A DNA stretch of 41,864 bases, from positions 1 to 41,864 of the forward strand of contig JAJPIT010000007.1 in assembly GCA_021324615.1 (NCBI GenBank), written 5' to 3'. Below are positions 25,821 through 40,646 of this stretch, in pieces (the stretch's first letter is position 1; each line of letters starts with the position of its first letter). The stretch comes from Terriglobia bacterium. GTDB taxonomy: Bacteria; Acidobacteriota; Terriglobia; Bryobacterales; Bryobacteraceae. The position numbers and the translations under genes were made by a program. Below the pieces are notes generated by a model, which ran no database searches, was not told where the DNA came from, and saw only the letters and a list, made by a program, of their open reading frames with translations.

Positions 25821-28601
25821 TCAAGGGCCCATCCGCAGGCTGCGCCGGAAGGGAGCCGGCAGCGGCGTCGCGTAGCCAACCAGGCAGTACTGATCGAGGG
25901 CGAAGAGCACCACGCTTTCAAATCCTTTGCCCAACGCGCTCCGCGCTTCCTTGAGCCATGGCGTAGTCGGATCGTTGACGCCGACCAGATGGGAGCTCTG
26001 CGCCGGAGGGAAACTCATGCTGGAGGGAAACGCGATCGAGGATTCCGCCAGATCCAAATTCCGCTGGAAGGTAAAGTCGAAATTCTCTGTCTTCAGAACC
26101 GCCAGAGCGGATGGCGTCCAGGCGGTCTGAGGGAAATTGATGGCCTGGTTGAAGGGCGTTTGATTTGTGTCCGCCGGATAGAGCACCTCGAACCGGCAGT
26201 CGGGCTGCGTAGTCCGCACCGATGCCGCGATTGCGCTGGTAAAGTTGCCGACCAGTGAGGCCAGGAACGCGGTCACCTCCGGATAGCTCGCCGGATCGGC
26301 CGTATTCGTCGTGATCACCGGCATCGAAAAGCCGTATTGCGCCAGGAACTGCGCTTGCGTCCAGGCGTCATAGAAAGGCATTCCTGAAAAGCTTGTTCCG
26401 GCTCCATCGTTCGGGAAATACCACCATTGGACTTCGCCGAATTGCAAGAACGGCTGCAATCCGGCCGAGGCTTGAAGGTTCGCCATCAGCCCATACGCCT
26501 GCTGCCAAAACGCCAGGCTGGCGGGCGAAAAATTGGTTTGCAGCGAAGGGGTCGGCAAGAGAATCGGATCGCCCGCCGGACCGCGCTGGGCGATTCCCGC
26601 CGCCGCGGACGGATCGCCGTTGCCCAGCTCCATGCTGAACGCCGCCGTCGCTTCAATTCCGTAACTTTGAAGCGCCGCGAAAAAACTGGCGTGCCAGTCC
26701 CGCGCCGCCCGGTTCACTACCGGCGATGCATTCAGATCGGTATACCAGTTCCCGTCAACTCCGCCGGCGAAGGACGCTCCGGATGTCGTGACACTGAAAC
26801 CGCTGCTGGTGGTGGACGCCGAAATTCCGATCCCGTTTCCCGCGGCGCCCATGGCACGCGCTTGAATCGTCAAAACGTTTCCCGCGGCGCTGGCCCACAC
26901 CGCCGTATAACCGCGGTTCAGCTCAAGGGCGAAAGCTGTGGCCATCATTTCCGCGGTCATGCCCATGTGGACCAGCTTGGTCAGCGTCAGTGTCGAACCC
27001 GGCTGCGCCAGATCCAGTGTGACCGTCGAACTGAACTGCGGCGTTCCGGAAAACGTCACCGTCGCCGTGGCATAAGCCGTCCCCTGGCGGACGATTTCGT
27101 AAAACCACAACGCTCCGCAATAGTGATTCTGACGGCCTGTGAAGCCGAGCGAAGCGATCATCCATGCCGTGCGCTCCGGCGCCAGCGCGAGCGAATGTTC
27201 CGTGTCCCAATCCGTGGCCAGGGTGATTGCAGACTGCGCCGGAAACACCGGCAGCTCGGTCGTGGGCACGGCCAGTTCGATGAAGTCGAAATAGAAATCG
27301 GCCGCCGCCGGTCCATTGTGCGTGAGCGTCACTTGATGCGGTCCGGCGCCATAGGTTCCCACCGGGTATCGGAACAGGACATCCTCCCCGGCGATCAGCA
27401 GATTTACCACGCCGGCTGCGGAGCCGTCCACTTGAATCGCCACCTGCGCGCCATTTCCCGTATAGCGCAGCCCCAGATATAACGTGTGACTCTGAACGGC
27501 GTCATAGGTGCAGGAAACCGAATTGCCCGGCGTCGAAGTATAGCTGATGGTTCCACCCGAATAGTTTCCCGTCGATCTCGTCCAGCCCTCGCCGGGAGAG
27601 TAGCTGACGGAGGGATCGTTATCTTCAATCCGCCGGCTCCCCGGACCCGCCACTGAGTAGCTCCGATTCGATCCGGTAACCGTCCAGTTGGAAACCACCA
27701 CGGCAAACTCGCTCCGCTGGTAAGCGCCGGGTTGCAAAGCGGCGGCGTACGTCCAGCGCAGTTTGCGCACACTTTGGGTCGGAACCGGCACCGGACTCCC
27801 GCTCCAATCCGAAGAAGTGTAGCCCTGCAGCGAGCTGAAATCGAGCGTGATCCGCCACTGCGTCGGTGACGCTCCGTTGGCAAACGCCTTCCACGGGGCG
27901 TCCCAGGTCTCCGCTCCGGTCGAAAACGTATACATGCCGAAAAAGTTTCCGTTCGCGCCCGCCGTGCTCGACGCGATCGGCTGCCCCGAGGTGTAGTAAA
28001 CGCGAATCGTGTTGCCGTTCGCCGACGCCTTCAGAAGCGCCGAGAACGAATTGATGCTCGCCGCCAGATTGCTGATGATCGTGGCCAGGGTGTCGCCGCC
28101 GAAAACCTGGTAAGTGTACTGCTCCTGGAAAAACGCGAGCCCCACGTAATCCCCCGCCGCGGTGCTGCCGGATAACGTGAAATCGGCGTAGGCGCACTGA
28201 TAACTGCCCGCCACCGGAGCCGCATGGGACAGCAACGGCACCCAGTAAATCGTCTCCGTTCCCCCCTCCGGTGTCGCCCATACCCGCAGCGACGGCCAGT
28301 CCACCGTCGGAAACAATGTCGAATCTATCGGGATGCAGTTGCTGCGCGTCTCGTCGTAAGTCAGAACCAACTGGCTCAAATCGCCGTCGGGGAGATTTCG
28401 AAACGCCGGATGTTCGTGCGTGTTGTCGCGGTTCCATTCAATCACCGCCCAGTCGGCTTGCTGGCGCCAGCAGCCCGACAGGGTGAATCCGCTGCTCGAC
28501 GTACTGCTCAGCGCCGCCGCCGCTGATCCGCCGCCGGACGGTTCGAAAAAATAGCATTGCAGATCCCGGTTCGGCGTCAATTTTTGAAGGATGTCCGCCA
28601 T
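25821..28601 (-). CDS. Large phage tail protein with binding-like and barrel-like domains
   Basis: A 926-residue protein, the last gene of the phage module, so probably a tail fibre or tip component that meets the host surface. Residues 140-255 and 510-615 contain two similar beta segments (DTLATIISNLAASIN/ANGNTIRV and AEMMATAFALELN/AGNVLTIQ). Residues 360-447 look like a galactose-binding/CBM-type sandwich (HTLYLGLRYTGNGAQVAIQV, ending DFYFDFIELAV). Residues 615-920 alternate strand and helix like a glycosidase TIM barrel, with glutamates in AAFSMELGN and QFGEVQWWYF as candidate active-site residues (inference). I do not recognise a named family with certainty. It starts eight bases after the hub gene. 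Confidence 0.65.
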   Translation of the reverse strand: MADILQKLTPNRDLQCYFFEPSGGGSAAAALSSTSSSGFTLSGCWRQQADWAVIEWNRDNTHEHPAFRNLPDGDLSQLVLTYDETRSNCIPIDSTLFPTVDWPSLRVWATPEGGTETIYWVPLLSHAAPVAGSYQCAYADFTLSGSTAAGDYVGLAFFQEQYTYQVFGGDTLATIISNLAASINSFSALLKASANGNTIRVYYTSGQPIASSTAGANGNFFGMYTFSTGAETWDAPWKAFANGASPTQWRITLDFSSLQGYTSSDWSGSPVPVPTQSVRKLRWTYAAALQPGAYQRSEFAVVVSNWTVTGSNRSYSVAGPGSRRIEDNDPSVSYSPGEGWTRSTGNYSGGTISYTSTPGNSVSCTYDAVQSHTLYLGLRYTGNGAQVAIQVDGSAAGVVNLLIAGEDVLFRYPVGTYGAGPHQVTLTHNGPAAADFYFDFIELAVPTTELPVFPAQSAITLATDWDTEHSLALAPERTAWMIASLGFTGRQNHYCGALWFYEIVRQGTAYATATVTFSGTPQFSSTVTLDLAQPGSTLTLTKLVHMGMTAEMMATAFALELNRGYTAVWASAAGNVLTIQARAMGAAGNGIGISASTTSSGFSVTTSGASFAGGVDGNWYTDLNASPVVNRAARDWHASFFAALQSYGIEATAAFSMELGNGDPSAAAGIAQRGPAGDPILLPTPSLQTNFSPASLAFWQQAYGLMANLQASAGLQPFLQFGEVQWWYFPNDGAGTSFSGMPFYDAWTQAQFLAQYGFSMPVITTNTADPASYPEVTAFLASLVGNFTSAIAASVRTTQPDCRFEVLYPADTNQTPFNQAINFPQTAWTPSALAVLKTENFDFTFQRNLDLAESSIAFPSSMSFPPAQSSHLVGVNDPTTPWLKEARSALGKGFESVVLFALDQYCLVGYATPLPAPFRRSLRMGP

Positions 28602-28608
28602 GGGCTGC

Positions 28609-31600
28609 TTACAAACGGATAATTACCGTCAGGTCGCGCCCTGGCGTGCCGGAAGCTGTCGGGACCGATAGGATGTCGAGCAAAACCTGGTTGCCTCCGC
28701 TCAGCGGCGGTAGCCCGAATCCATCCACGGAGTTCGAGATCGTGGCGCCATCCGGGATCGTCAGGGTGCAATATATCGTGCTGCCTTGACGGAGCTGGAG
28801 CTGCACAGGCCCCCCGCTCGGCGCCTCGCCGACCACCGCGAAGATGTCGCGTGCGGCAAGCGAGCTCTCGACGATGAGCGGCGGCGCTGCTGCGGTCTGG
28901 ATCGCAAGATACCCCTCCACCTGGATCGACAGTTGCCCGCCGGCCAGCGTACGTAATCCTTGATCGGCCGTCCCGCCAAACGACACGCCCGTCGACGGGC
29001 TGTTCCCATGAACATTGGTCACATAGAATTCAGCCGCGCCAATCCGTACATCCGGTAAGAAAATCGATTCGCTATAGCTTCCGCTCGCGGGACTTCCAAA
29101 GAAATCTTCTACGAAAGGAACGATCGTGACGTCCCGTTGCAGCGGATATACCAGCGCGCCGGCCGAATGCGCCGTGGCCGTGCTGCCGTGTGATCCCCGG
29201 CTCACCTGAAATTGCGAGCCCCCGTTTTGAACCGCGATTACCTCAACGATCTCGCCCTCGATCTGAATCAAATCATCGATCCCCGACGGACCGGCGGCGT
29301 TCAGTGTGATCGTCGTGTCCGTCGCTGAGATCCCCGCCGCAAGGCTGAAACTGGTCGGACTGCTCAGCTCGTTCCAATAAAACAGGGTCAGCGTTCCCGC
29401 CGAAATGGTGTGCGTATTCGTCAGATCCGTAAAGCCGATTCCGGTCAGATCCACGGTTCCCTGTGCCCCCAAACTCAGCCCAAAGGCGGGAGCCGGCGGA
29501 ACATCGGCGTCCACCCCGCCGCCCGCCGCGCCGCCGATCTGCCACCGCGTCACCGGATTCAGATCAGGAGCGCTCTCCTGATTTAGCGCGTTCGCCGATC
29601 GTCCCGTGATCTGCACCGTCACTCCGTGCTGATTCGGCACCTGAATCACCGCCGGACTCGTCGCGCTCAGCCCGCCGAAATTCCAGGTCGAATTGGCGAC
29701 CACGAAATAGCTCGTCGCGTCGGGTTCAATCGTCCAGGCGGGAGAAACCGTAATCGTCGTCGCCGTGTTCGCGATCACGGCCCGCTCCTGTGCCGCGCCG
29801 GTTCCGCGCGTGATTCTTACCAGCGCCCCGGCGAATTCGTTCGCCAGCATCCCCAGACCGTTGTTGCCGATCGTTGTCGGCGAATAGATCTGCGCCGGCG
29901 CTTCCGGTTGAAGCTCCAGCCTCCAGTAAAAATTCGCATGATCGTAATTCCCATCCGGCGGTCCTTGCAGTTGCGGCGCCGCGCCGGTGTCGGTGTACGT
30001 AGCGCCGGCGGCGACATTCGAAGCAATCAGCAGCAACTCCTGCGGATTCCAGCCGCGATAAACATTGAATCCCGCCGTTGTCGAAGAAAAGCTGAGAGAG
30101 GAAAGCGTAACCGTGTTCGTATCGGACCCGGCTGGAATCGTCGCCGGCACCACAAAGGACAGCGCGCTCTCACCGCCGCTTCCGTCCAGCGCGCTGATGG
30201 CGTAATACAGCGTCTGTCCTCCCGCGAGCGTGCCTCCCGTCGGACTCACTGCCGCGTTCAAACTCAGCAGCGGGATCGAGACTCCCGTCGCCGCGGGTTT
30301 CGCCGGCGGATGAAACGCGGCGCTCAGCGAAATCGTAAAACTCCCATCGCTCGCCTCTGTCGATGTCTCGGTGATTCCGAACTGATCGATTCCATCGCTA
30401 TCGATCACGCTTCCCACCAGCGGACGCGGCAGCCCGACCCCTCCGGCCGGCTGTCGCCCCACCCCCGTCGTGCTCGCGTTGCCCGTCGTGTACCACTCGT
30501 CATCATGCCACTGGGCCGTCACCTTCAGCGTTTGAAAGTTCTGTCCCGGCATCAAACGCACCACCCGGAACGGCTGCCGCTCCAATCCTTCTTTGACATA
30601 GGTGACCGTAATAATGTCCCCCGGCGCCAACCCGATCCCTTTCACCGTCGTCTCAAAATCGATGAATTGATAGCCGTTGATACTCTTATTGAGCTGAAGC
30701 GAGAGAACCCGAGTCGCCTGATCAAAATTCGGCAGGCCTAGCGCCAGGTAGGTCGCCGTCACTTGCCGGTTCGTCAGCAGCGCGTCGTCGGCGTCCACCA
30801 CTGACAAGCTGTCCTGCTGGTATTGATTGAACTGATCTTGAAATTCGACGCTCAGCCGGTTCGCCGTCGCCGCCGTGCTCTGCGACCACAGCCGGATCGA
30901 AGGCTCTCCGCTCGCCTTCCGCGCCAGGCCCGAAAACGCCGCAGACCCATCGCTGAATTCGTACGCCGGCCACCCGCCGTTTAGCGGCTCCGTGCTGTTG
31001 CTTCCCCCGGGCAGCACGGGCTGTTGCAGCGCCAGGCTGTTTTCGACCCTCAGCGTCAGCAGGCCGCCGTTGTCATATGTCAGAATCAGCGACGAAGCGT
31101 TTCGAATCCCCAGCGCTACCTCCGCCGCGCTTCTGGGCTGCGTCAGCACCAGGTTGCACTGAAACCGCGGAGCCGTCACTGGGTTGCCGTTCAGATCCGT
31201 CATCTGGATCGGCTGCGCGCAATAGGCCGCCGCTGCGGCGAAACTCTCCAGATCGACTTCGCTCGTCAGCCACCCGCTCCGCCGCAGCACGTCCAGCAAC
31301 ACCCACGCCGGATTGTTCGTGAACGACGTTCCAAGCGAATTTCCCGACGCGTCGAACTGCTCCAGATGCAGACCATTCAACAGCACTCGAATTTGCGGCA
31401 GTGACGTTCCATCGCTGATTGAGTTCGGCACCACCACGCTCATCATCGCCATGCTCCCGTAGGGATCCCCCAGCGGATTGCCGGCCGCGTCCGTAAAATT
31501 CGGATCGAACGCGCCATTGCGCGTGCCGGTCGTGATGAGATTGAACCATCCCGTCGCCGTCATATTGACGCCGCTTTGTCCCTGCGGGACGTTGATCCCG

Positions 31601-32535
31601 TTCACCAGCACCGCGACCACGCTGTCGATCGGTCCCATCCCCAGCAGCACTTCCATGCGCGTCAGATTCCCGTCATTCCGCGCGAACACGATCGGCGGCT
31701 CATACCATGCCGTCCCGTATACCAGAGGAACGTAGTTGTTATAAATCGCCAGGTTGTCCTGCAACGCGGAAAGCTGCCGGCCGCTCTCCCCGAAGCTGCG
31801 AACCAGAATCTGCGGCGGAACAAATTCGATTCCCCCGAACCGGGACGTAACATTTCCATTCGCGTCGCTTGAAAACATCCCGCGCGCCATGCACGAGGCT
31901 CGCGAATAATCGCAGGACGTGTAGGGAACCCCGCCTTTCATATTTCCCACCCCGCCGCTCAAATCCGGAGAGTATCCGCACTTGTAAAGCGTGGAATAGG
32001 ACCCTTTCTCGCCGCCATCCAATGCTTCCTGCCGTTGCGCCGCGTTCGCCGGAAACATCCACGGGCATAACCGCAGAATCTGCGTCTCCGGCAGGACGAT
32101 GCGTTGCAGGCTCAGCCGGTTGTTGAAGGAAACCCGGAAGCTGGTCTCCGTGATTTCGTCCGGCGGATTCGCGACGCCTTGAAACATCACCCGGGACTCC
32201 GAAGCCGCCGCCCCTCCGGCCAGATCGTAAAACAGAAACGTAATCGTAACCTGCGCGCCCTTGAACCCCACCTCGCGCTCGATCTGCGAAAAGTGCGAAT
32301 CCGCGTTGGCCAGCGTCACCCGGATCAGCGCGGTCCCGTCCAGCCCGTCATTGGACGACGCGCGCAAATCGTACAGATTGTGCTGGATCAATCGCGCGCT
32401 GTACGCGTTCCCGTTGACCGTCACCGCGTGCGTGGCCCATCGCTCCACCGCGCCCGAGCTCAGCGTGCAGTCGAATAAAAACAGCGGCGTCGGCGGAGCT
32501 TCCGTTTCTTTTAAAACGTCGATCGTGAGCGGCAT
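28609..32535 (-). CDS. Giant tail-tip hub protein (lambda gpL-like plus gpJ-like) with Ig-like domains
   Basis: A 1308-residue protein. Residues 15-235 resemble the lambda gpL/phage BR0599-type tip protein: beta-rich, with Cys157, Cys186 (YKCGYSP), Cys208 and Cys215 (SCDYSRASCMARG), a pattern like the iron-sulfur site of gpL. Residues 240-690 resemble the gpJ/GTA megatron hub (NNPAWVLLDVLRRSGW near 407-422, GDIITVTYVKEGLERQPFRV near 639-658). The remainder carries fibronectin/Ig-like modules (LYYAISALDGSGGESALSF, then AGFNVYRG) and beta-rich tail domains. GGAGGG lies seven bases before ATG 32535. The gene sits between distal-tail genes and the 926-residue tail protein, the expected hub position. 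The separate NlpC/P60 peptidase usual between L and J is missing. Confidence 0.75.
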   Translation of the reverse strand: MPLTIDVLKETEAPPTPLFLFDCTLSSGAVERWATHAVTVNGNAYSARLIQHNLYDLRASSNDGLDGTALIRVTLANADSHFSQIEREVGFKGAQVTITFLFYDLAGGAAASESRVMFQGVANPPDEITETSFRVSFNNRLSLQRIVLPETQILRLCPWMFPANAAQRQEALDGGEKGSYSTLYKCGYSPDLSGGVGNMKGGVPYTSCDYSRASCMARGMFSSDANGNVTSRFGGIEFVPPQILVRSFGESGRQLSALQDNLAIYNNYVPLVYGTAWYEPPIVFARNDGNLTRMEVLLGMGPIDSVVAVLVNGINVPQGQSGVNMTATGWFNLITTGTRNGAFDPNFTDAAGNPLGDPYGSMAMMSVVVPNSISDGTSLPQIRVLLNGLHLEQFDASGNSLGTSFTNNPAWVLLDVLRRSGWLTSEVDLESFAAAAAYCAQPIQMTDLNGNPVTAPRFQCNLVLTQPRSAAEVALGIRNASSLILTYDNGGLLTLRVENSLALQQPVLPGGSNSTEPLNGGWPAYEFSDGSAAFSGLARKASGEPSIRLWSQSTAATANRLSVEFQDQFNQYQQDSLSVVDADDALLTNRQVTATYLALGLPNFDQATRVLSLQLNKSINGYQFIDFETTVKGIGLAPGDIITVTYVKEGLERQPFRVVRLMPGQNFQTLKVTAQWHDDEWYTTGNASTTGVGRQPAGGVGLPRPLVGSVIDSDGIDQFGITETSTEASDGSFTISLSAAFHPPAKPAATGVSIPLLSLNAAVSPTGGTLAGGQTLYYAISALDGSGGESALSFVVPATIPAGSDTNTVTLSSLSFSSTTAGFNVYRGWNPQELLLIASNVAAGATYTDTGAAPQLQGPPDGNYDHANFYWRLELQPEAPAQIYSPTTIGNNGLGMLANEFAGALVRITRGTGAAQERAVIANTATTITVSPAWTIEPDATSYFVVANSTWNFGGLSATSPAVIQVPNQHGVTVQITGRSANALNQESAPDLNPVTRWQIGGAAGGGVDADVPPAPAFGLSLGAQGTVDLTGIGFTDLTNTHTISAGTLTLFYWNELSSPTSFSLAAGISATDTTITLNAAGPSGIDDLIQIEGEIVEVIAVQNGGSQFQVSRGSHGSTATAHSAGALVYPLQRDVTIVPFVEDFFGSPASGSYSESIFLPDVRIGAAEFYVTNVHGNSPSTGVSFGGTADQGLRTLAGGQLSIQVEGYLAIQTAAAPPLIVESSLAARDIFAVVGEAPSGGPVQLQLRQGSTIYCTLTIPDGATISNSVDGFGLPPLSGGNQVLLDILSVPTASGTPGRDLTVIIRL

Positions 32536-32538
32536 CCG

Positions 32539-33333
32539 TCAACCCTCCGTATCCACGATCGGGATCACCGCATCGTAAACGTCGATCCCTCGCGCCGTCA
32601 CCGTGAAGTCGTCGCTGCCAAACCGCGCCCGCGCGTAAACCCCGCCCCTGGAGCTGGTGGCCTTGTAATCCGACGGCGCCCGTTGCGCCTCCACCTGCAC
32701 GCCGAACAGGTCCACCGTCGCCCCCGCATCGAGCTGCGCTCCGAAAGTCACCTGCGATGTGCTCTGCCCCAGGTTGCCCGCCAGTACAATCCGCGACCAC
32801 GCTCCGCTCAGCGGGAAGGTTTTCGCCAGATTCGCCCCCGTGGTAGAAGCGGTCAGCGTCACATTCGATGTGCCCGCCGTCCGCGCCCAGGCGCTGAAGC
32901 AGTACTCGAAATTTCCCGGAACATTCAACACCTGCGCGACCGAAGCCGCCGCCGCTCCCGCATTCGTGATGCGCGTCGCGCGCGTCGTCCCCAGCGGATC
33001 CGCAACCCCGGCCGTCAACTGCATCAGAGGCCCGTTGGTCCACACGCCCGCGCCTAAATTCTCGCTCTGCGCCAGCAGATTCCCCGTGGGATCCAGAAAC
33101 GTAAACGTCTGCCACATTCCCGAAGTCGCCTGATAAAGCGCTTCGATCGCGCTCCACTCCGCCGCCGTCATACCCGTCGCGTGCAGTTCCCATGCTTTCG
33201 CTGCACCATCCGGATCGCCAAAAACCCACACGCTTCCATCCGCCATGACATTCACCGCCGTCCGCTGAGCCGATGTCTTCTTCACCGGATACAACGCCGG
33301 CGCGCCCGTCACGAATTGTGGAAAAACAAGCAT
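32539..33333 (-). CDS. Distal-tail-like protein with inserted beta-sandwich domain
   Basis: A 264-residue protein. The N-terminal third resembles its neighbour at 33333-33692 and GTA/phage distal-tail (DUF2460-like) proteins: GMTAAEWSAIEALYQATSGM then TFTFLDPTGNLL. Residues 90-225 are a carbohydrate-binding-like sandwich (SENLGAGVWTN, ATRITNAGAAAA, FSAWARTAGTSNVTLTAS). The C-terminus returns to a distal-tail type ending. Start choice: TTG 33336 and ATG 33333 are adjacent. The ATG overlaps the upstream stop as TGATG and is preferred. It probably joins tail tube to hub and could help host binding (inference). Confidence 0.6.
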   Translation of the reverse strand: MLVFPQFVTGAPALYPVKKTSAQRTAVNVMADGSVWVFGDPDGAAKAWELHATGMTAAEWSAIEALYQATSGMWQTFTFLDPTGNLLAQSENLGAGVWTNGPLMQLTAGVADPLGTTRATRITNAGAAAASVAQVLNVPGNFEYCFSAWARTAGTSNVTLTASTTGANLAKTFPLSGAWSRIVLAGNLGQSTSQVTFGAQLDAGATVDLFGVQVEAQRAPSDYKATSSRGGVYARARFGSDDFTVTARGIDVYDAVIPIVDTEG

Positions 33334-33692
33334 CAACTTCGGTTCTCCCGGATCACCAACTTCACCCTCCCGTCCTGCGGACCCGCAAACTCCACTTCCA
33401 GCCGGTCATCCGCGAAACTGCAGCTCGGATATACCGTCCCATCGAACGGATCGGTGAAAGAAAATGTCCCCGCGCGGCCGCCCTGTTCCTCAAAAAACGC
33501 CTCGATCGCCGCCAGCTCCGATTCATCGAGCCGTTCGTAATGGATCGTCCAACTCCGAAGTGGCGTACCATACCCTGCAAACCGCTGCTCGCTCCCATCG
33601 AGAAAACGAATCACCTGCGTCGGGAAATTTCGCCGCCGGTCCGTCGGATACTGCGCAACCACCCCGGTTTTTAATAGTGGAAACGACGCCAT
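33333..33692 (-). CDS. Distal tail protein (DUF2460-like)
   Basis: A 119-residue protein whose sequence pattern fits the small distal-tail/tail-completion proteins that cap the tube before the hub: FPLLKTGVVAQYPT at the start, WTIHYERLDESELAAIEAFF, then GTFSFTDPFDGTVYPSCSF and a strand-rich end. It begins two bases after the stop of the tape-measure candidate and overlaps the next gene by one base (TGATG). Its position matches gp12 of Rhodobacter GTA and gpM of lambda. Assignment is by pattern and position. Confidence 0.6.
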   Translation of the reverse strand: MASFPLLKTGVVAQYPTDRRRNFPTQVIRFLDGSEQRFAGYGTPLRSWTIHYERLDESELAAIEAFFEEQGGRAGTFSFTDPFDGTVYPSCSFADDRLEVEFAGPQDGRVKLVIRENRS

Positions 33693-33693
33693 G

Positions 33694-34275
33694 CTACACC
33701 GCCCGGATGACGTCGTTCAAAGTCGTCGACGTCAGCATCGCCTGCCTCACCGCCTGCGCAATATCGTCGCTGTGATCCAAAAACGATTGGCTGTCCAGCG
33801 CCTGAACCTGAACCGTAATCTGCGCCGCCGCCGGCACCGGATTCGGCAGCCCTCCCGATCCTTCATTCACCGCAAACGCGCCGGTTTGGCTCGAACTAAT
33901 CCCCAACGTCGCGCTCACCGGCGCCGGCGCGATATAGGGAACCAGCGGCGCACTCTCACTCGAACCCCCGCCGCCCCCGAACAGGCTCATCAGGCCGGAA
34001 ATCAGCGGGCTCAACCCCAGTCCGAATCCCAATACGCTCTCGATCGTGCTTCCAACCGACTTCGCGCTCGGCCCGTTCTGCCCTTTTTCGCTCGTATTCT
34101 GCGCGATCGCCTGCGTGTTCTGCTGCATCGTCTCGATCTGCGTCTGGTTGATCGTCTCCAACTGCTGCAACTGCTGGGTGATCGTCGTCAACTGATCCGT
34201 CAGCACATTGCTTTGCGGGGAAGCCGCCCCGCCCAACACCGCCGTCACCGCGCTAACTGGATTTGTGCTCGTCAT
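33694..34275 (-). CDS. Short tape-measure candidate
   Basis: A 193-residue protein located where tape-measure proteins lie, directly after the two tail chaperones and before the distal tail. Residues 22-62 form a Gln/Thr-rich coiled coil (LTDQLTTITQQLQQLETINQ). Residues 81-100 are hydrophobic (VLGFGLGLSPLISGLMSLFG) as in tape measures that insert into membrane. A Gly-rich linker and a compact C-terminal part follow. No longer candidate exists in the module. ATG 34275 has GAAGGGAG just upstream and overlaps the chaperone gene's end by 23 bases. The role is inferred from order and composition, not homology. Confidence 0.5.
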   Translation of the reverse strand: MTSTNPVSAVTAVLGGAASPQSNVLTDQLTTITQQLQQLETINQTQIETMQQNTQAIAQNTSEKGQNGPSAKSVGSTIESVLGFGLGLSPLISGLMSLFGGGGGSSESAPLVPYIAPAPVSATLGISSSQTGAFAVNEGSGGLPNPVPAAAQITVQVQALDSQSFLDHSDDIAQAVRQAMLTSTTLNDVIRAV

Positions 34276-34588
34276 TCGCTCCCTTCCGCCACTCTGCTTC
34301 GAGCAGCAAAAACGCATCCGCCAGCCGCGCGTCCAACTCCTCCAGCCGCCGGTCGCCGGCGAACTTCCAGGCGAAAAATCGCTCCATCCACTCCAGACTC
34401 TGCGGCGTGATCAGCGATTTCGGACACTCTTCCGTCGACGCCCGCCCGCGCGCCCAAACCAGCCTCCGCGGGCCGCGCAGCTCCGCCGGCAGCCACCCGC
34501 AGCGCCTTCGAACTTCCAGACCCTGTCTCCGGCATTCGTCGCATCTCCACCCGGCCTGGCTCGAGCTTTGAAAGTGGAATGCGACCAT
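34253..34588 (-). CDS. Tail-assembly chaperone, downstream frame (G-T type extension)
   Basis: A 111-residue frame overlapping the end of the first chaperone by one base (TGATG). It carries four cysteines in a zinc-finger-like spacing (C16, C19, C30, C55: WRCDECR, RRCGW, EECPKS) and a helical C-terminus (ECPKSLITPQSLEWMERFFA). By position it is the T part of the lambda-type G/T pair. It can be reached by -1 slippage at the A-AAA-AAC site just upstream, giving a fusion of about 238 residues, or by reinitiation at ATG 34588. An ATG further upstream in this frame (34741) would run wholly inside the other gene and is rejected. Confidence 0.65.
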   Translation of the reverse strand: MVAFHFQSSSQAGWRCDECRRQGLEVRRRCGWLPAELRGPRRLVWARGRASTEECPKSLITPQSLEWMERFFAWKFAGDRRLEELDARLADAFLLLEAEWRKGANDEHKSS

Positions 34589-34968
34589 CAGTTTTTTCTT
34601 TCTTCTTCCGTCAACCCGCACTCGGATTTGATGCGGGCCAGAATCTCCATCGCCAAATCTACCGGCCCGGCTTCGATCAACGCCCGCGGCGTCGCGGGGC
34701 TCCCGTCGATCTCCAGCCCCTCCACCCCGATCAGGCCCCATTCCAGATACGCCCGCTCGATCTCCGCCGCCATCACCGCGCCTTCCAGCTTCTCCCGCAC
34801 GTCGTCGCCCGCTCCGAGATACTCCGCTTTCCGCCCGATCTCGCGAATCCGCCGCGCCAGCTCGATCCGCCGGCCGAACGATACCCGCGCAATCTCAAAC
34901 CGCACCCCCGGCGCCACTTCCGATTCGCACCAGATCGAGCTCGCGTACGGATTAACCGAAGGCGACAT
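34588..34968 (-). CDS. Tail-assembly chaperone (G-like)
   Basis: A 126-residue, mostly helical acidic protein (FEIARVSFGRRIELARRIRE, then VREKLEGAVMAAEIERAYLE) lying between tail tube and tape-measure candidate, the place of lambda G / GTA gp10. Its last codons read AGA AAA AAC TGA, containing a slippery heptamer. ATG 34968 is chosen because AGGAG stands nine bases upstream. ATG 34977 touches that AGGAG, and a longer frame to 35040 lies inside the tail-tube gene. It overlaps the tail-tube stop by 17 bases. Confidence 0.65.
   Translation of the reverse strand: MSPSVNPYASSIWCESEVAPGVRFEIARVSFGRRIELARRIREIGRKAEYLGAGDDVREKLEGAVMAAEIERAYLEWGLIGVEGLEIDGSPATPRALIEAGPVDLAMEILARIKSECGLTEEERKN
34591..34597 (-). 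promoter_or_regulatory. Programmed -1 frameshift slippery heptamer (A AAA AAC)
   Basis: Minus-strand sequence AAAAAAC with zero-frame codons AGA AAA AAC followed at once by TGA. The phase is exactly X XXY YYZ. After a -1 slip, reading continues CTG ATG GTC into the downstream chaperone frame. A purine-rich, Shine-Dalgarno-like stretch (GGAAGAAGAAAG) lies directly upstream and could stimulate slipping. Confidence 0.75.
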
Positions 34969-36124
34969 AAAGTTCATCTCCTGACGTCCCCTGTGCCCTG
35001 CTGTTCTGAAATTTCCATTGCAGCCGCGTCTCGCTGTCATCGAACTGCGGAACCGACGGCACCATCGCTGGCATGTACGCCCCGAATAGCTGATTCGTCC
35101 GCTGCCCTAGCTGCAACATCACCCCAATCGGTGACCGCTGCCGCGCCGCCTGATACAGCGCCGCCGTCTGTGCGTCCGCCATCTCGAAAAGTTCGAAATT
35201 GAACGTGACCTTTCTGATGCCCGCCGAGATGCATTGCGCGTAATTGCTGCCGAACTCCTTCACCCGCAAATCCACATCGTTGTCGAGCGTCAACTCTCCC
35301 GCCGTCAGCGTGAAAAATTGATTCGGCGACGTGCCCATCCACACCTCGCCCAGGTGCCCCGGAACAATCGTGTAGTCGAATCCCCCCACCGCCGGCTCGG
35401 CCGGAAACGACGTCAACCCGCCCTGTCCGCTCGCGAAACTGGCGCTGTCCAGCAGATCCCGCGACGGTCCCGTAAACACGAACTCCTGATAATCTCCGTT
35501 GATCGTGATCTCCATCCGGTCCATGGCCGCGCCTTCCAAAATCCTCTGGACCGCGTCCGCCGGATCCCAGTAATCGAAAATGCTCACGCCGCTCAGCGAT
35601 TCGCCCAACGGAAACGTGATCGTCGTCCCAAACGTCGATCCCGCCACCGGCGGATTCGTAAACGGCGCGTTCAGAAATATCGTCTGCGCGTCCTGAATCG
35701 CCGCGACAAATCTGATCTCTCCGGAAAACGTCACCCCTTGCCCGGCCGCCAGCCCGTGCGGCGCCGTAAATTGAATCTCCGTCTGATTCGCCACCGATGC
35801 GACCGTCCCGCCGTTATAAAAAATAGGCGTCCCGCCCATCGCACCCTGAAACAGCGGACCTTGCGGCGGCAGCGCCGTCTGGTCCGGCCACTCCGTCATC
35901 AACGTGCTCAGTTGAAATGTCGTGATCTCGCGAATCGTGTTCGGCAGACCCACAAACGTGCGGCTCCCCGTCTTGTCCTTCCGCCCGGTCGTCTCCGGAA
36001 CCTGTTTCGCCGCCAGCTTCACCAGCGGAATCCGGTTCTGGCTGGTGATTGCCGGCACCACCCCGTAGTTCGCCTCCAGCGCCACATAAACCCGTTCATT
36101 ATTCGAAGAAATATAACAAGACAT
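34952..36124 (-). CDS. Major tail tube protein
   Basis: A 390-residue protein, strand-rich throughout, in the tail-tube position after the terminator-like gene. It starts RVYVALEANYGVVPAI, a common opening of phage tail tube proteins, and has an inserted beta domain at about 105-175 (FTAPHGLAAGQGVTFSGEIR). The tube core resumes with LTLDNDVDLRVKEFGSNYAQ and the conserved-looking C-terminal FNFELFEMADAQTAALYQAA. It is longer than a simple tube subunit of about 150-250 residues, so the insertion may decorate the tail surface. The gap to the upstream gene is 26 bases, the largest among the tail genes. Confidence 0.65.
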   Translation of the reverse strand: MSCYISSNNERVYVALEANYGVVPAITSQNRIPLVKLAAKQVPETTGRKDKTGSRTFVGLPNTIREITTFQLSTLMTEWPDQTALPPQGPLFQGAMGGTPIFYNGGTVASVANQTEIQFTAPHGLAAGQGVTFSGEIRFVAAIQDAQTIFLNAPFTNPPVAGSTFGTTITFPLGESLSGVSIFDYWDPADAVQRILEGAAMDRMEITINGDYQEFVFTGPSRDLLDSASFASGQGGLTSFPAEPAVGGFDYTIVPGHLGEVWMGTSPNQFFTLTAGELTLDNDVDLRVKEFGSNYAQCISAGIRKVTFNFELFEMADAQTAALYQAARQRSPIGVMLQLGQRTNQLFGAYMPAMVPSVPQFDDSETRLQWKFQNSRAQGTSGDELYVAFG

Positions 36125-36150
36125 CGATTCCAGTCCCTTGCTTTCCGCCC

Positions 36151-36648
36151 CTAGCTCGACAAATCCACTTCAAACGTCACCCGCGCCACCTGCATCAGAT
36201 TCCTGCCGCCCCGCCCCACCGGCTCAAACGCTACCTCGTACCCGCCGGCGTAAAACATCCCTTGGCCCCAGCTCCCGCGGTTCGCATCGAGCACCTGCGT
36301 CACCGCGTCCACGTATAGCCGAGTCTGATCCTCCAGCCCTTCGATCCGGTCCTGCGAAACCCGCACCTCCGCCACCGTCTGTATCTTCCCGGAAAATGTT
36401 CGGAACTTCTCTGTCAACAAATTCCGCACCCGGTTCGAATACACATAAACCACCGGATATTTCACCGCCGCCGCCCGTTCCGCGATCGCCGCCGGTACGT
36501 TTTGGCCGATGATCCCCTCCGACGGAATCGGCGCAAGCGCAATCCCCGAATCCGCCGCCAGCCGGGATACCGCCGGCGCCATCCCCTTCTCGGAATCCAA
36601 CAAAAATGCGGCGAATTGTTTCGCCGCGATGCTCGCCGTCTGCGCCAT
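36151..36648 (-). CDS. Phage neck/tail terminator-like protein
   Basis: A 165-residue alpha/beta protein (QFAAFLLDSEKGMAPAVSRL, YPVVYVYSNRVRNLLTEKFR, SQDRIEGLEDQTRLYVDAVT, ending RNLMQVARVTFEVDLSS). It sits between adaptor and tail tube, where stopper and terminator proteins (GTA gp7-gp8, lambda U) are encoded. The size and final beta-strand fit a tail terminator, but no decisive motif was seen. It begins one base after the adaptor stop. Confidence 0.5.
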   Translation of the reverse strand: MAQTASIAAKQFAAFLLDSEKGMAPAVSRLAADSGIALAPIPSEGIIGQNVPAAIAERAAAVKYPVVYVYSNRVRNLLTEKFRTFSGKIQTVAEVRVSQDRIEGLEDQTRLYVDAVTQVLDANRGSWGQGMFYAGGYEVAFEPVGRGGRNLMQVARVTFEVDLSS

Positions 36649-36649
36649 C

Positions 36650-37423
36650 CTATCCCCGCCTCAGTGTCGGACCGCCGGTCACATACACGTCCGGCGTCTG
36701 CCCGTCCCCCGGCGCTCGCCCCGCGGAAAGCCCCGTCGCCGGCATCACGAAACTCTGCCCGGCCGGTACCGGCGAGGCGTTTTGCAGCGCCAGACTCGTC
36801 GCACTCAACCCCGCGTAAACATTGAACCCCGTCGCCACCGCTGGCGGATTCACCCCCGCGGCCACCAGTGTCATCCCCGCGCCCGTCTCATACGCCGTCA
36901 CCGGACTCGGCGCGCCTTCTTCCCCGTTGGCCGCAACCCACGTAATCGCGACGTAGTAGATCGCCGTCGCCGTCCCCGCCGCCGCTGTGGCGCTCAGCGC
37001 CGGCGCCGCCGCCTCCGGAATCGGCGTGTTCACCAGTCCAATCCCGAACATCGCCGTGTGCGACCGCGCGTTCGCCGATAATCTCCTGTACTCCTGCCAC
37101 TTCGGCAGATATCGGTCGTTCAGTTGATTGTTAAACGCATCCCGGTAGACGATCTCCAGCGTGTGCAGGGCGTGCCACCGCTTCATTTGCGGCGTAACCA
37201 CCACGTCCGAAACCCCGATCTGCCGCCGCACCGTCGACTGCGGATCGTAGCTGCGCGTGTGATCCAGCAAAATCTCCAGCACGTCCTCGGAAATTTCCTC
37301 CGTCGCCAGCGCGAGCTTCACTCCAAGATCGATCGCCTCCGCCGCCGCCACGTTCAGAATCGCCGATTCGTACACCGTCAAATCCGCCGGCGTATTCGGA
37401 CTCCCATCCGTTAACAGCGCCAT
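36650..37423 (-). CDS. Head-tail adaptor-like protein with C-terminal Ig-like domain
   Basis: A 257-residue protein. Residues 10-125 are helical (LTVYESAILNVAAAEAIDLG, LEILLDHTRSYD, MKRWHALHTLEIVYRDAFNN) and match the layout of head-tail adaptors that dock on the portal. Residues 140-235 form an Ig/fibronectin-like domain (IYYVAITWVAANGEEGAPSP, then ATGFNVYAGLS), very similar to one in the hub protein. The ATG abuts the stop of the 87-residue gene upstream. An external Ig-like domain may help the particle cling to cells or glycans (known for other phages; inference here). Confidence 0.6.
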   Translation of the reverse strand: MALLTDGSPNTPADLTVYESAILNVAAAEAIDLGVKLALATEEISEDVLEILLDHTRSYDPQSTVRRQIGVSDVVVTPQMKRWHALHTLEIVYRDAFNNQLNDRYLPKWQEYRRLSANARSHTAMFGIGLVNTPIPEAAAPALSATAAAGTATAIYYVAITWVAANGEEGAPSPVTAYETGAGMTLVAAGVNPPAVATGFNVYAGLSATSLALQNASPVPAGQSFVMPATGLSAGRAPGDGQTPDVYVTGGPTLRRG

Positions 37424-37687
37424 CTATCGCCCCTTCGTGCGCCATCCCGCGTCATGAGCCGCCTTCCACTTCCGCTCCGCCTCGGCGCGGAACTCCGCGG
37501 CCGCTTCTTCGCTCGCCAGCTCCGCCTTCTCCTCAAGGATCATCCGCGCCGCCACCGCTCGCGGAACTTCCGTCCGCACCCCCGCCCGCCCGCCATCCGG
37601 CGTCGCCAGGCTCGTGATCACCACCGATTCCTCGCGAATCTCCGCCTCAATTTGTCGAAGTTTTTGATAGTAAGCCCGCAAATCCAT
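37424..37687 (-). CDS. Small helical phage protein, function unknown
   Basis: An 87-residue, charged, helical protein (MDLRAYYQKLRQIEAEIREE at the start, ARMILEEKAELASEEAAAEF later, basic end). It lies between coat and adaptor, where head completion or small accessory proteins occur. ATG 37687 is used because it has GGAGAG upstream. A longer frame to 37750 has no ribosome site. It abuts the adaptor gene (TAG then ATG). Confidence 0.55.
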   Translation of the reverse strand: MDLRAYYQKLRQIEAEIREESVVITSLATPDGGRAGVRTEVPRAVAARMILEEKAELASEEAAAEFRAEAERKWKAAHDAGWRTKGR

Positions 37688-37778
37688 CCCGACTCTCTCC
37701 GCTTCCCCCGGCAATAAAATGGGGCAGGCCTCGCCGCAGCGGAGCTCCACCGCCTGCCGCGCCCGCCCCGCTCGGAAT

Positions 37779-38690
37779 CTAGCTCAGCACCTGCACCGCG
37801 AAGTTGTTCCGCAGCGCGCCCACTCCGTACAGCACGTCCACCGTGAACTGCTGCGCCAGCGTGTTCGGCTGATAGCTCATCGTCACCCGCATGCCAAAAT
37901 TCCCCAGTTCCGCGTACTCCGCGATCGCCCCCGTTCCCGGCAGCGGTTGCGGCAGCTTGCGCACCACCAGCCCGATCGCGTCCCGCGCAAACGCCAGATT
38001 GTGCGTCGTCACCGGTGAGCTCCCCGTCGTCGGCACAAACTGCGACCGGAAGATGTAAAAATCCTTCATCTTCCCCACCGACCCGTCGATCATCGCCCGC
38101 AGCCCCGCCTCGCCCACCGTGTTAAACTCGCTGAACCGCGGAATCTGCCGCAGCTCCGAGTACGTGCTCGGACTCACCACCAGATACTTCGCCGAACTCG
38201 ACGGAACCTTCGCCGAAAACAACGCCGTCTCCGCCGCGTCCACCACCGCTTCCGTGATCGCCGTGCCCCCCGTGCCCACCGCCGGATTCGCCGTGAACGT
38301 CGGATACAGGCTCAGAATGTCGCTCTCGATGCTCTCGGCGATCGCCACCACCGCCGGCTGCATGTACAGCTTCAGCAGATCCGGAACCGCCAGCACTTTC
38401 GCCACGTCCGGAATCTGGAACGACGCCTCCACGTGGTTCGTCAGCACAATCTGCGCGTTCCCCGGAGGCGGATTCTGCAACTGCACCGCCGCCCCGTCCA
38501 CAATGTTGTTCGCCACCAGCGTCGGCGGAATCGGTACATTCACCGTATCCCCGGCCCGCGCCAGCGTCGCCTCGTAGTCGCGATTCACCAGGTTCCCCAT
38601 CACCAGGATCCCCATCAGCGCCGGCAGCGCATCCGCCGCCACCAGCTTCACGATCGCCGTCGCGACATTTGTCGAAGTAATTGCTCCCAT
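37779..38690 (-). CDS. Major capsid protein (P22-like coat)
   Basis: A 303-residue HK97-fold coat of the P22 type. Marker segments are GNLVNRDYEATLARAGDTVN then VPIPP near 32-56, LTNHVEASFQIPDVAKVLAV, AESIESDILSLYP, and LVVSPSTYSELRQIPRF in the middle. FAFARDAIGL-like and QFTVDVLYGVGAL segments end it. AAGGAG stands five bases before the ATG. It follows the scaffold gene and no maturation protease is present, consistent with scaffold-driven assembly without cleavage. Confidence 0.85.
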   Translation of the reverse strand: MGAITSTNVATAIVKLVAADALPALMGILVMGNLVNRDYEATLARAGDTVNVPIPPTLVANNIVDGAAVQLQNPPPGNAQIVLTNHVEASFQIPDVAKVLAVPDLLKLYMQPAVVAIAESIESDILSLYPTFTANPAVGTGGTAITEAVVDAAETALFSAKVPSSSAKYLVVSPSTYSELRQIPRFSEFNTVGEAGLRAMIDGSVGKMKDFYIFRSQFVPTTGSSPVTTHNLAFARDAIGLVVRKLPQPLPGTGAIAEYAELGNFGMRVTMSYQPNTLAQQFTVDVLYGVGALRNNFAVQVLS

Positions 38691-38729
38691 ATCTTCTCCT
38701 TTTTCTCCTCCTCCCTCATCCAGACCGCG

Positions 38730-39245
38730 TTACACGCCGCGCAGCGTCTGCGCCGCCACGCGCGCCACTTCCTGCCTCACCCTCTCCAGCTCCTCCGCGC
38801 TCATTCCCGGGCGGATCCTCGATAAATCCACACCACCCCCCTCCGGACCTCTCTGAGCCGCACTCGCCCCAGACCCTCCCGCCAGACGCGCCGGCAAAAG
38901 CTCCGGATTCTCGTCCACGAACTGCGCCAGATACTCCCGCAGCTCGCTTCCCCCTTGCCCCATCAATCGCCCGTCTTCCCCGCGGTAAATGTCATCCTTT
39001 ACCGCCCGGTACGCCAGCTCGATCTTCGTTACCCCGAGCCTCTGTAATTCCGCACGGATCGCCGCGCTCCGCTCCGCCGCCTCCGCCGCCTCTCGAGCCC
39101 GCTGATTCTCCGCGATCAGCTCGTTCACCTTTCTTTCGAGCGTCTCCCGCTCCGCAAATCCCATCTCCTGCATCACCGCGCGAACCACCTCCCGCAGGTC
39201 CGCCGCGCCGCCCGCCGCCAGCGGGCCTCCGTTTTCTTCACCCAT
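38730..39245 (-). CDS. Phage scaffolding protein
   Basis: A 171-residue acidic, coiled-coil protein (ERKVNELIAENQRAREAAEA, then AERSAAIRAELQRLGVTKIE). A Pro/Gly-rich linker and a short helical C-terminus follow (SAEELERVRQEVARVAAQTL) that would contact the coat. Composition and position between portal and coat are typical of internal scaffolds. ATG 39245 has GGAGGAG seven bases upstream and overlaps the portal stop by eight bases. A TTG at 39251 is less likely. Confidence 0.75.
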   Translation of the reverse strand: MGEENGGPLAAGGAADLREVVRAVMQEMGFAERETLERKVNELIAENQRAREAAEAAERSAAIRAELQRLGVTKIELAYRAVKDDIYRGEDGRLMGQGGSELREYLAQFVDENPELLPARLAGGSGASAAQRGPEGGGVDLSRIRPGMSAEELERVRQEVARVAAQTLRGV

Positions 39246-40605
39246 GCTCAATCTCCTCCACGATCCGATCCTTCACCTCCTGCCGCGCATCGCTGACAAA
39301 CTTCATCGCCAGCTTCTTGAAAATCTCCTTCTTCAACGTCGGCGACTCCACACCCAGCGCCAACAGCTCCTGGGCCTGCGATAACTCCGTCGAAAAATCC
39401 GCAATGTCGAAGTTGTCCAGCCCCCCCACGCTGATCTCGATCCCGTCCTCCCGCGCCGCCTCGATCGCCTTCAGCACCCGCCGCATCTGCTCCTTCACCG
39501 CGTCCCCATACGCCCGCAGCACCTCCTGCGTCATCGAAAAATCAAGCTGCTTGCTGATCCCCGATTGCACCGCCGCCTTCTCCAGCGGCCCTCCCGCCTG
39601 CGGCAGATAGCAAACCCGGTAGATCTCCTCCTGCAAGCTCGTCAGATTGTCCGCCGCGATCTGATAAACCTTGCCCTCCGGCTCCGTCCAGCCAAACTTG
39701 TCCCCCGGCGCAAGCTGAATGTAGTAACTCTCGCCCACCATCTGGCTCCACTCCCGCTCCGAGTACACCACCGGCATCGCGAAAAGCCCCATCGTCAGCG
39801 CCCAGCCCAGCGCGTTCGATTTATTGAAATGCTCCAGTTGCAGCAGCCCCGCACGGTTCAGCAGCCACAAGCCCTCGGAAATCCGCAGCGGAAACAGCGG
39901 CACCCGCTCCAGCTTCGCCAGCCCGTGCGCCCCCGAATCGATCAGCCGGATCGCCGCCTCCCCGTCGCTCCTTTGATAGATCCGGAAACTTCGCTTGTCG
40001 TAGTACGCCCATCGCGTCTCCGTCCGCCAGTCCGCATCCTCCACCCGGTCTTTCTTCACCGCCCTGGTCCGGATCACCACCCACTCGAAGTTCCCGCGCT
40101 CGTCCAGGCTCCAATTGATTACGTCTTCGGCCGTGTAATCCACCAGATACGCCCGCGACGCCCCGCTCGCGTCCTCTTCCGCCCGGCTCCCCGCCCGCAC
40201 CTGAGTCCGCGGAAAATCCACCAGTACAAAACTCACCCCCGAAATCAGCGCTTCAATGAACTGCCGCCGCCAAAAATCGGTCAGCGAGCTCCCCTTGCGG
40301 TCCACGTCGCTCATCAGCTCCGAATAAAACAGCTTCGCCGCCTCGTCCCGGCCCTCAAACACCACCGCCGGCTGCTCGCGGAACAAAGTCGCCGCGTACC
40401 AGTCCACAATCGAGCCGATGTAGTTCTCGTAGAACACCCGGTTCAGCCGCTCCGCGTAAACATCGGCCGGCTCCCTCTGCCTCCGCGCCAGATAGTTCTG
40501 CGCCCTAAGCCTTAATTGCTCCCCGCCCGCATACAAGTCCCGGTAGAGCCGCCAAACCGCTTTCCGCGCCGAATAATGTGGATGTTCCCGGTCAATATCA
40601 AACAA
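39238..40605 (-). CDS. Portal protein
   Basis: A 455-residue DNA-entry vertex protein. It begins YSARKAVWRLYRDLYAGGEQ, followed by YLARRQREPADVYAERLNRV and NYIGSIVDWYAATLF, and contains LEHFNKSNALGWALTMGLFA and VYQIAADNLTSLQEEIYRVC in the stem/wing region. A helical C-terminus ends it (LRAYGDAVKEQMRRVLKAIE). This fits portal families of the DUF4055 type. The start is decided by the ribosome site: no ATG fits, but TTG 40605 lies six bases after GGAGG and begins right at the conserved region. A much longer upstream frame overlaps the terminase and reads as low-complexity Gly/Arg shadow. Confidence 0.82.
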   Translation of the reverse strand: MFDIDREHPHYSARKAVWRLYRDLYAGGEQLRLRAQNYLARRQREPADVYAERLNRVFYENYIGSIVDWYAATLFREQPAVVFEGRDEAAKLFYSELMSDVDRKGSSLTDFWRRQFIEALISGVSFVLVDFPRTQVRAGSRAEEDASGASRAYLVDYTAEDVINWSLDERGNFEWVVIRTRAVKKDRVEDADWRTETRWAYYDKRSFRIYQRSDGEAAIRLIDSGAHGLAKLERVPLFPLRISEGLWLLNRAGLLQLEHFNKSNALGWALTMGLFAMPVVYSEREWSQMVGESYYIQLAPGDKFGWTEPEGKVYQIAADNLTSLQEEIYRVCYLPQAGGPLEKAAVQSGISKQLDFSMTQEVLRAYGDAVKEQMRRVLKAIEAAREDGIEISVGGLDNFDIADFSTELSQAQELLALGVESPTLKKEIFKKLAMKFVSDARQEVKDRIVEEIEHG

Positions 40606-40646
40606 GAATGTCCTCCCCAGGCCGCTCTCCAGCGGCCCGCCGCCCG

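Follow-up and report, generated by a model that had tools for sequence, protein, structure and literature searches.

The closest described counterparts of the locus analysed here are the tail genes G and GT of bacteriophage lambda, which are joined at the heptamer G GGA AAG. Retroviral gag-pro uses A AAA AAC together with a pseudoknot, and stems that stimulate frameshifting begin about 5–9 nt after the heptamer. To our knowledge, few prokaryotic frameshift sites have a comparatively supported stimulator. In E. coli dnaX, A AAA AAG is combined with an upstream Shine-Dalgarno (SD) sequence and a stem-loop, as described in passages of PMC7618472 and PMC5009743. The frameshifting passages of PMC5009743 further place A AAA AAC among the shiftiest heptamers on mammalian ribosomes, describe it as slipping far less readily than A AAA AAG in E. 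coli, and count certain tailed phages among the frameshift cases seemingly without stimulatory signals.

The window, which is the whole 41,864-nucleotide stretch analysed, corresponds to contig 118 in an assembly of 3.94 Mb. The first of two overlapping frames on its minus strand (ORF1) ends in GAA GAA AGA AAA AAC TGA, and an earlier note on this DNA had pointed out the in-phase AAAAAAC at this end, together with a −1 frame free of stops for 112 codons and a product of about 238 residues. Both readings hold: the heptamer stands in zero-frame phase, and reading in −1 from its last C gives 112 codons without a stop and a 238-aa fusion with the junction ..ERKN-LMVAF.. (Table 1). The bare heptamer is common in the window, where it occurs 7 times against 4.15 expected and where 12 of 100 shuffles reach 7, so that conservation alone can decide on its significance.

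Table 1. Features of the window discussed in the text, in window coordinates.
Feature	Position	Strand	Basis or remark
ORF1, first tail assembly chaperone (gpG-like position), 126 aa, zero frame	34588..34968	-	TGA abuts heptamer
Slippery heptamer A AAA AAC	34591..34597	-	Kept in AAC or AAT form in 159/164 ORF1-bearing family genomes
−1 frame domain (domain 2), 112 codons including the re-read C, four invariant Cys	34253..34591	-	Entered from ORF1 by predicted slip
5-nt spacer, heptamer to stem	34586..34590	-	Alignment columns 8-12
Stem S1, 5' arm	34574..34585	-	RNAalifold without given structure; pair counts; window's own MFE fold
Stem S1, 3' arm, one bulged base	34538..34550	-	RNAalifold; pair counts; window MFE fold
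Candidate pseudoknot stem S2, 5' arm, inside S1 loop	34553..34559	-	Pairing/covariation
Candidate pseudoknot stem S2, 3' arm	34516..34522	-	Pairing/covariation
Terminase large subunit (TerL), truncated by contig end	40662..41864	-	75% identical to L332 TerL (PF03237, E 7.8e-6)
Portal, by position	39247..40605	-	74% identical to L332 gene after TerL, itself without Pfam match
P22-type major capsid protein	37779..38690	-	PF11651 E 9.7e-17; phrog_283 E 2.4e-45
Tail tube (major tail) candidate, by position	34952..36124	-	phrog_290 (named minor tail protein) E 7.9e-9
Candidate short tape measure (by position), 196 aa	33694..34284	-	Weak PHROGs: Rz-like spanin 2.6e-4, tape measure 0.003
DUF2460 tail protein	33333..33692	-	PF09343 E 2.5e-13
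Tail tip / J-like protein	28609..32535	-	phrog_31 E 3.2e-23; PF13550 E 7.3e-7
Large distal protein past tip gene	25821..28601	-	Present in 26/40 loci

ORF1 relatives were found in 164 of 200 Bryobacteraceae genomes, one per species, with a single match in each apart from five genomes with two; 150 of the 164 genomes were examined first and the remaining 14 later. An in-phase heptamer stands at the ORF1 end in 159 of the 164, as A AAA AAC in 153 and as A AAA AAT in six, and the zero-frame stop follows immediately in 132 of these, one codon on in 25 and at no nearby position in two. Among the first 150 loci, A AAA AAC is present in 146 (119 with an immediate stop, 25 with one codon between, and two, L202 and L203, with the zero frame open), L134 is the sole locus with A AAA AAT and has an immediate stop, and the exceptions are L014, with another sequence, L130, which ends near a contig edge, and L215, which lacks domain 2. 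The later 14 genomes comprise seven with A AAA AAC and five with A AAA AAT, every stop being immediate, and two that are unreadable. In IMG/VR, 83 of 91 loci were readable: 78 have heptamer and stop, L101 has one codon between, L048, L049 and L051 have the heptamer and a zero frame that continues, and L122 has G GGA AAC. Subsequent counts rest on 146 of the 150, those dropped for incomplete domain 2 being L010 (contig end), L130, L215 and L216. In these 146 loci the slip codon encodes Lys in 145, each time as AAA, and Arg in L014; Lys elsewhere in ORF1 of the 145 genomes is encoded by 122 AAA and 369 AAG. Compared across homologues, heptamer and −1 overlap are thus conserved while the adjacent codons vary.

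Some loci depart from this pattern in their own ways. L216 has the heptamer and stop followed by a −1 frame of only 60 codons, and is a broken or misassembled copy. Genome G015 carries, on contig 26 (L546), a divergent second chaperone pair beside the standard one, in which the zero frame stays open for 23 codons past A AAA AAC, a layout like that of L122. The stop lying exactly one codon past the heptamer in 25 of 150 loci belongs to a character with nine state changes on the tree; one idea for stops staying close is that a stop codon near the heptamer could stimulate the slip.

This distribution bears on two explanations that dispense with a ribosomal slip. The frame break could be a disabling mutation in a decaying prophage, and L130, L215 and L216 do appear broken or reduced; however, the identical break recurs at the identical base in those 159 genomes, each of a different species, and both frames are conserved at the protein level. 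Conservation refutes the decaying-prophage reading, whose probability we regard as negligible. Transcriptional slippage, by contrast, would insert a base at the run of A, and the six-A run, longer in a few genomes, could indeed slip. It is nevertheless very improbable as the explanation: the phase to the zero frame is kept, A AAA AAT takes the place of A AAA AAC in six genomes, the G GGA AAC of a distant phage contains no more than three A in a row, and the conserved RNA stem described below lies 5 nt downstream.

The earlier note had also named reinitiation at TGATG as an alternative route to the downstream domain, which would then be a separate protein made by termination and reinitiation. 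TGATG is present in the window itself, but only 5/119 family genomes and 4/78 IMG/VR loci have ATG as their second −1 codon; ACN, AGR and GTY are also found at this position, and the non-standard start codons ATC and ATT are common there. Any ATG, GTG or TTG falls within the first seven −1 codons in 6/145 genomes, the first being at index 7 or later in 139/145 and past index 19 in 118/145, that is, beyond the VAFHF stretch and the usual first two Cys; in 57/145 the open −1 stretch upstream also has no start codon. The rarity of start codons in the −1 frame refutes reinitiation as a general route, leaves it to a few genomes only, and makes it highly improbable as the source of domain 2. Domain 2 is conserved from residue 3 onward, and its four Cys are invariant in 73/73 chosen representatives. 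The lack of a conserved standard start, together with conservation from the third residue, implies that domain 2, if made in any quantity, is made as part of the fusion. As in lambda-type frameshifting, a conserved X XXY YYZ site in zero-frame phase precedes a second frame without a start of its own. The proposal in the earlier note that the tail chaperones use a programmed −1 frameshift of the lambda G/GT type is therefore supported, and such a frameshift at the ORF1 end is, on comparative grounds, close to certain for the family.

Our results suggest the following mechanism. Ribosomes on ORF1 would reach A AAA AAC and, 5 nt further on, an RNA stem that may form part of an H-type pseudoknot. 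Most would terminate right after the heptamer to release the 126-aa chaperone, and a fraction would slip one base back and read 112 more codons to give the 238-aa fusion with its four-cysteine domain. With lambda-like roles, the 126-aa chaperone would form a coat on the tape measure, the 238-aa product would bring in the tail tube protein, and the slip would set the ratio of the two, the last by analogy with lambda. We hold it to be very probable that a slip at A AAA AAC yields both proteins, is stimulated by the stem and serves lambda-like ratio setting. Comparison of the genomes establishes, at the level of sequence, the conserved site, the second frame without a start and the conserved, covarying stem; from these we infer the slippage itself, a slip rate, the second stem of the pseudoknot and the role in tail assembly.

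With regard to the stimulator, the earlier note had seen an SD-like tract just upstream of the heptamer, as at dnaX. The tract is indeed purine-rich, but its pairing with the anti-SD, for which a generic 16S tail was used in place of this genome's own, averages −5.3 kcal/mol against −6.4 kcal/mol for synonymous random sequences, the real tract being the stronger in 52/146. At the ORF1 codons three and two before the slip Lys, GAA is preferred over GAG (59:2 and 116:26), the reverse of the SD expectation. An SD stimulator, tested twice, is unsupported. The evidence instead supports, through comparison of homologues, a 3' stem, perhaps a pseudoknot, as the stimulator rather than a dnaX-like SD.

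Codon usage pointed past the heptamer toward this stem, the third −1 codon being GTC in 103/104 genomes with Val at that position. The top four of 168 codon-bias columns are domain 2 Val3 (in S1), ORF1 Arg117 (heptamer), domain 2 Ala13 (in S2) and ORF1 Lys118 (heptamer). RNAalifold, given 141 of the 146 loci and no structure, returned a 10-pair stem beginning 5 nt past the heptamer, a start that fits the spacing of pseudoknot signals. In an 11-pair version of S1, 95.5% of cells are paired, compared with 37.7–50.5% when the partner is slid, and double-change cells number 59 against 17.7 in shuffles (0/500 reach this). Pairs changed on both sides (4 versus 3.4 in shuffles, 236/500) and further pair types (16 versus 15.2, 198/500) show no excess; three of the five pair measures thus exceed shuffles, and relatedness can inflate these three. 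On the tree, a strict test of independent pairs, which is underpowered, gives two to three well-supported independent changes per pair and no p < 0.05; the partner follows in 1.5–2.7 changes on average, is otherwise unchanged, and never changes in the opposite sense.

Sequences from outside the discovery of the stem were compared as well. In the later 14 genomes, which lie outside the stem alignment, the five lower S1 bases are all paired in 10 of the 12 that are readable. In genus g55, not used in stem discovery, C-G replaces U-A in 8/8 genomes and the encoded amino acids differ at both positions; a single ancestral change may account for this. Among 178 distinct IMG/VR sequences, the lower S1 is fully paired in 141; this set was filtered by motif and fetched in part by a pattern containing the S1 5' arm, and it accordingly tests the 3' arm and S2. 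As support for the stem, folding energy was uninformative or contrary: the window is unremarkable (z −0.06), the mean z of 73 of the 146 sequences against synonymous random recoding is −0.32, and the first 40 nt past the heptamer fold more weakly than two control stretches. Taken together, the alignments suggest that a conserved stem S1 follows the heptamer and is possibly closed into an H-type pseudoknot.

The closing stem S2 would use a 7-base arm in the S1 loop, in H-type geometry. Its cells are paired in 82.5% of cases against 79.2% in shuffles, a small margin that 0/1000 shuffles reach. The synonymous Gln and Leu codons that face each other in S2 covary (CAG-CTG 55, CAA-TTG 15, CAG-TTG 4, CAA-CTG 1; Fisher p 2.5e-11, relatedness ignored), and the Ala codon in the S2 arm is GCC in 122/125. 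It could be that S1 alone stimulates and that S2 arises as a side effect of protein conservation. This would agree with full S2 pairing in no more than about half of the sequences (81/146, and 77/177 out of sample) and with the weaker out-of-sample association of the Gln/Leu codons (81, 11, 9 and 10 in the same order, p 5e-5), which includes 10 CAA-CTG breaks. The synonymous covariation, the GCC bias and the shuffles speak against it, and we consider stimulation by S1 alone rather unlikely, though a serious alternative to the pseudoknot.

The name chaperone is derived from position and weak fold similarity. An AlphaFold model of ORF1 (mean pLDDT 87.8) weakly resembled proteins annotated as phage tail assembly chaperones (E 0.05–1.1), the best match (E 2.6e-9) being uncharacterised, and ORF1 has no match at E 0.01 among 50,697 phage records. 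No Pfam family matched ORF1 or domain 2, and single members reach E ~0.008 to three PHROGs without description. For domain 2 (mean pLDDT 94.1), a fold search of the PDB and a viral library gave no match at E < 1; its invariant Cys pattern is Cx2C-x10-C-x24-C, and the model is perhaps that of a new metal-binding fold. Of 111 confirmed domain 2 relatives, the 80 kept are all acidobacterial by record, with 35 from Bryobacterales/Bryobacteraceae, 11 of Solibacter type and the rest mostly placed at phylum or class level; L299 and L305 are from Acidobacteriaceae and Acidobacteriales.

The chaperone frames overlap between the tail tube and tape-measure candidates, neighbours that are themselves named by position and weak profiles. 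They belong to a 16-kb TerL-to-tail cluster (25821-41864), which is retained in 164/200 family genomes as judged by ORF1 and is catalogued as virus in IMG/VR. The cluster was compared in the 40 titled loci above 20 kb among the 80 kept, all of which had been selected by domain 2. It lies on one strand with an identical gene order in 40/40 loci; 13 of the 15 genes tested are present in 39 or 40 of them and the tape-measure candidate in 37, and the gap between domain 2 and the DUF2460 gene has a median of 627 nt (range 96–933). A host ABC transporter gene follows the cluster in 17/40 loci, within the available stretch. In five of five genomes the nearest Phage_integrase (PF00589), the tyrosine type being the one sought, is ~76 kb or more away, and signal-bearing IMG/VR contigs reach 23.2 kb at most among 80 listed (of at least 120 stretches in all). 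The earlier note had spoken of related prophages and of frameshifting upstream of a tape-measure gene; a candidate for that gene is there, although small, and the cluster looks more like a vertically kept remnant than like an ordinary prophage with an integrase.

A draw of 297 genomes across the phylum, scored at 15 candidates per genome and with a family make-up only partly listed, gave two matches, both in the window's genus. ORF1 similarity follows RpoB similarity with rho 0.59 (45 of 60 chosen genomes, those with a full or nearly full RpoB-piece match) and 0.46 after removal of the window's genus; at least five genomes of the same genus are without an ORF1 match. Flanks in 10 distant genomes and the window mostly differ, with shared upstream genes in G047, G099 and G144, so that no single ancestral site is demonstrated for the family as a whole. 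L122:401-12424 belongs to a 47-kb viral contig whose tail genes have the same order at 24–39% identity, with G GGA AAC in the position of A AAA AAC. It is a possible free relative, and a search for further phage relatives of L122 returned L122 alone.

The cluster is probably a vertically kept remnant, possibly a gene transfer agent (GTA). A more specific proposal is that Bryobacteraceae possess a GTA of their own lineage, vertically inherited and short-tailed, whose chaperone pair is controlled by a retrovirus-style A AAA AAC with pseudoknot under codon-level selection across the family. We advance this only tentatively and give it somewhat less than even odds; the two non-significant pair measures and the flank differences count against it and in favour of S1 acting alone. 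If the proposal is correct, the short tape measure would demand a higher ratio of fusion than lambda's. At 0.15 nm per residue, a tape measure of 196 aa would correspond to a tail of roughly 30 nm. RcGTA carries DUF2460 and PF13550, which are present in the window cluster too, and has an HK97-type capsid, whereas the capsid here is P22-type. The predicted proviruses of Bryobacterales-specific 'group (i)', with Caudoviricetes-like regions, described in the parts of PMC11924767 considered here, are probably the same element. They are treated there as proviruses, in a main text with no word beginning frameshift, and the named Solibacter record of that paper was not encountered in a search through the L208 domain.

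In titles and opening abstracts, with subscription papers mostly outside the search, nothing was found on this signal or on a GTA in Bryobacteraceae. The 159 genomes, one per species, supply comparative evidence for a stimulator at a heptamer reported to be poor in E. coli, and the structure may have been kept because A AAA AAC shifts poorly there. Constraint on the signal speaks for continued use of the tail genes in this family-wide phage remnant, and makes a GTA role testable in a phylum that is common in soil. Two protein families that match nothing in Pfam also come to light, and a phage-derived tail gene would give two proteins from one message through a type of folded-RNA signal better known from animal viruses.

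Among known systems, lambda G/GT resembles this locus in its place between tail tube and tape-measure genes, in the −1 direction and in the fusion of a second domain without a start. It differs in that the heptamer here is A AAA AAC, the stop abuts it and a 3' stem, perhaps a pseudoknot, follows; Pfam and PHROG profile searches gave no sequence-family link to lambda G/GT. Bacterial dnaX likewise combines a −1 slip with a structure after it, but is a cellular gene, whereas here AAC occupies the A site and an SD is unsupported. A tail chaperone pair of phages with archaeal hosts shares A_AAA_AAC, and its relatives switch between G_GGA_AAC and A_AAA_AAC, as here; apart from the archaeal hosts, it differs in that the relevant passage of PMC5009743 mentions no stimulator. 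Retroviral and coronaviral signals are alike in heptamer, short spacer and pseudoknot-like geometry, and unlike in that the signal here would act on a bacterial ribosome in tail genes, so that the likeness would be convergent.
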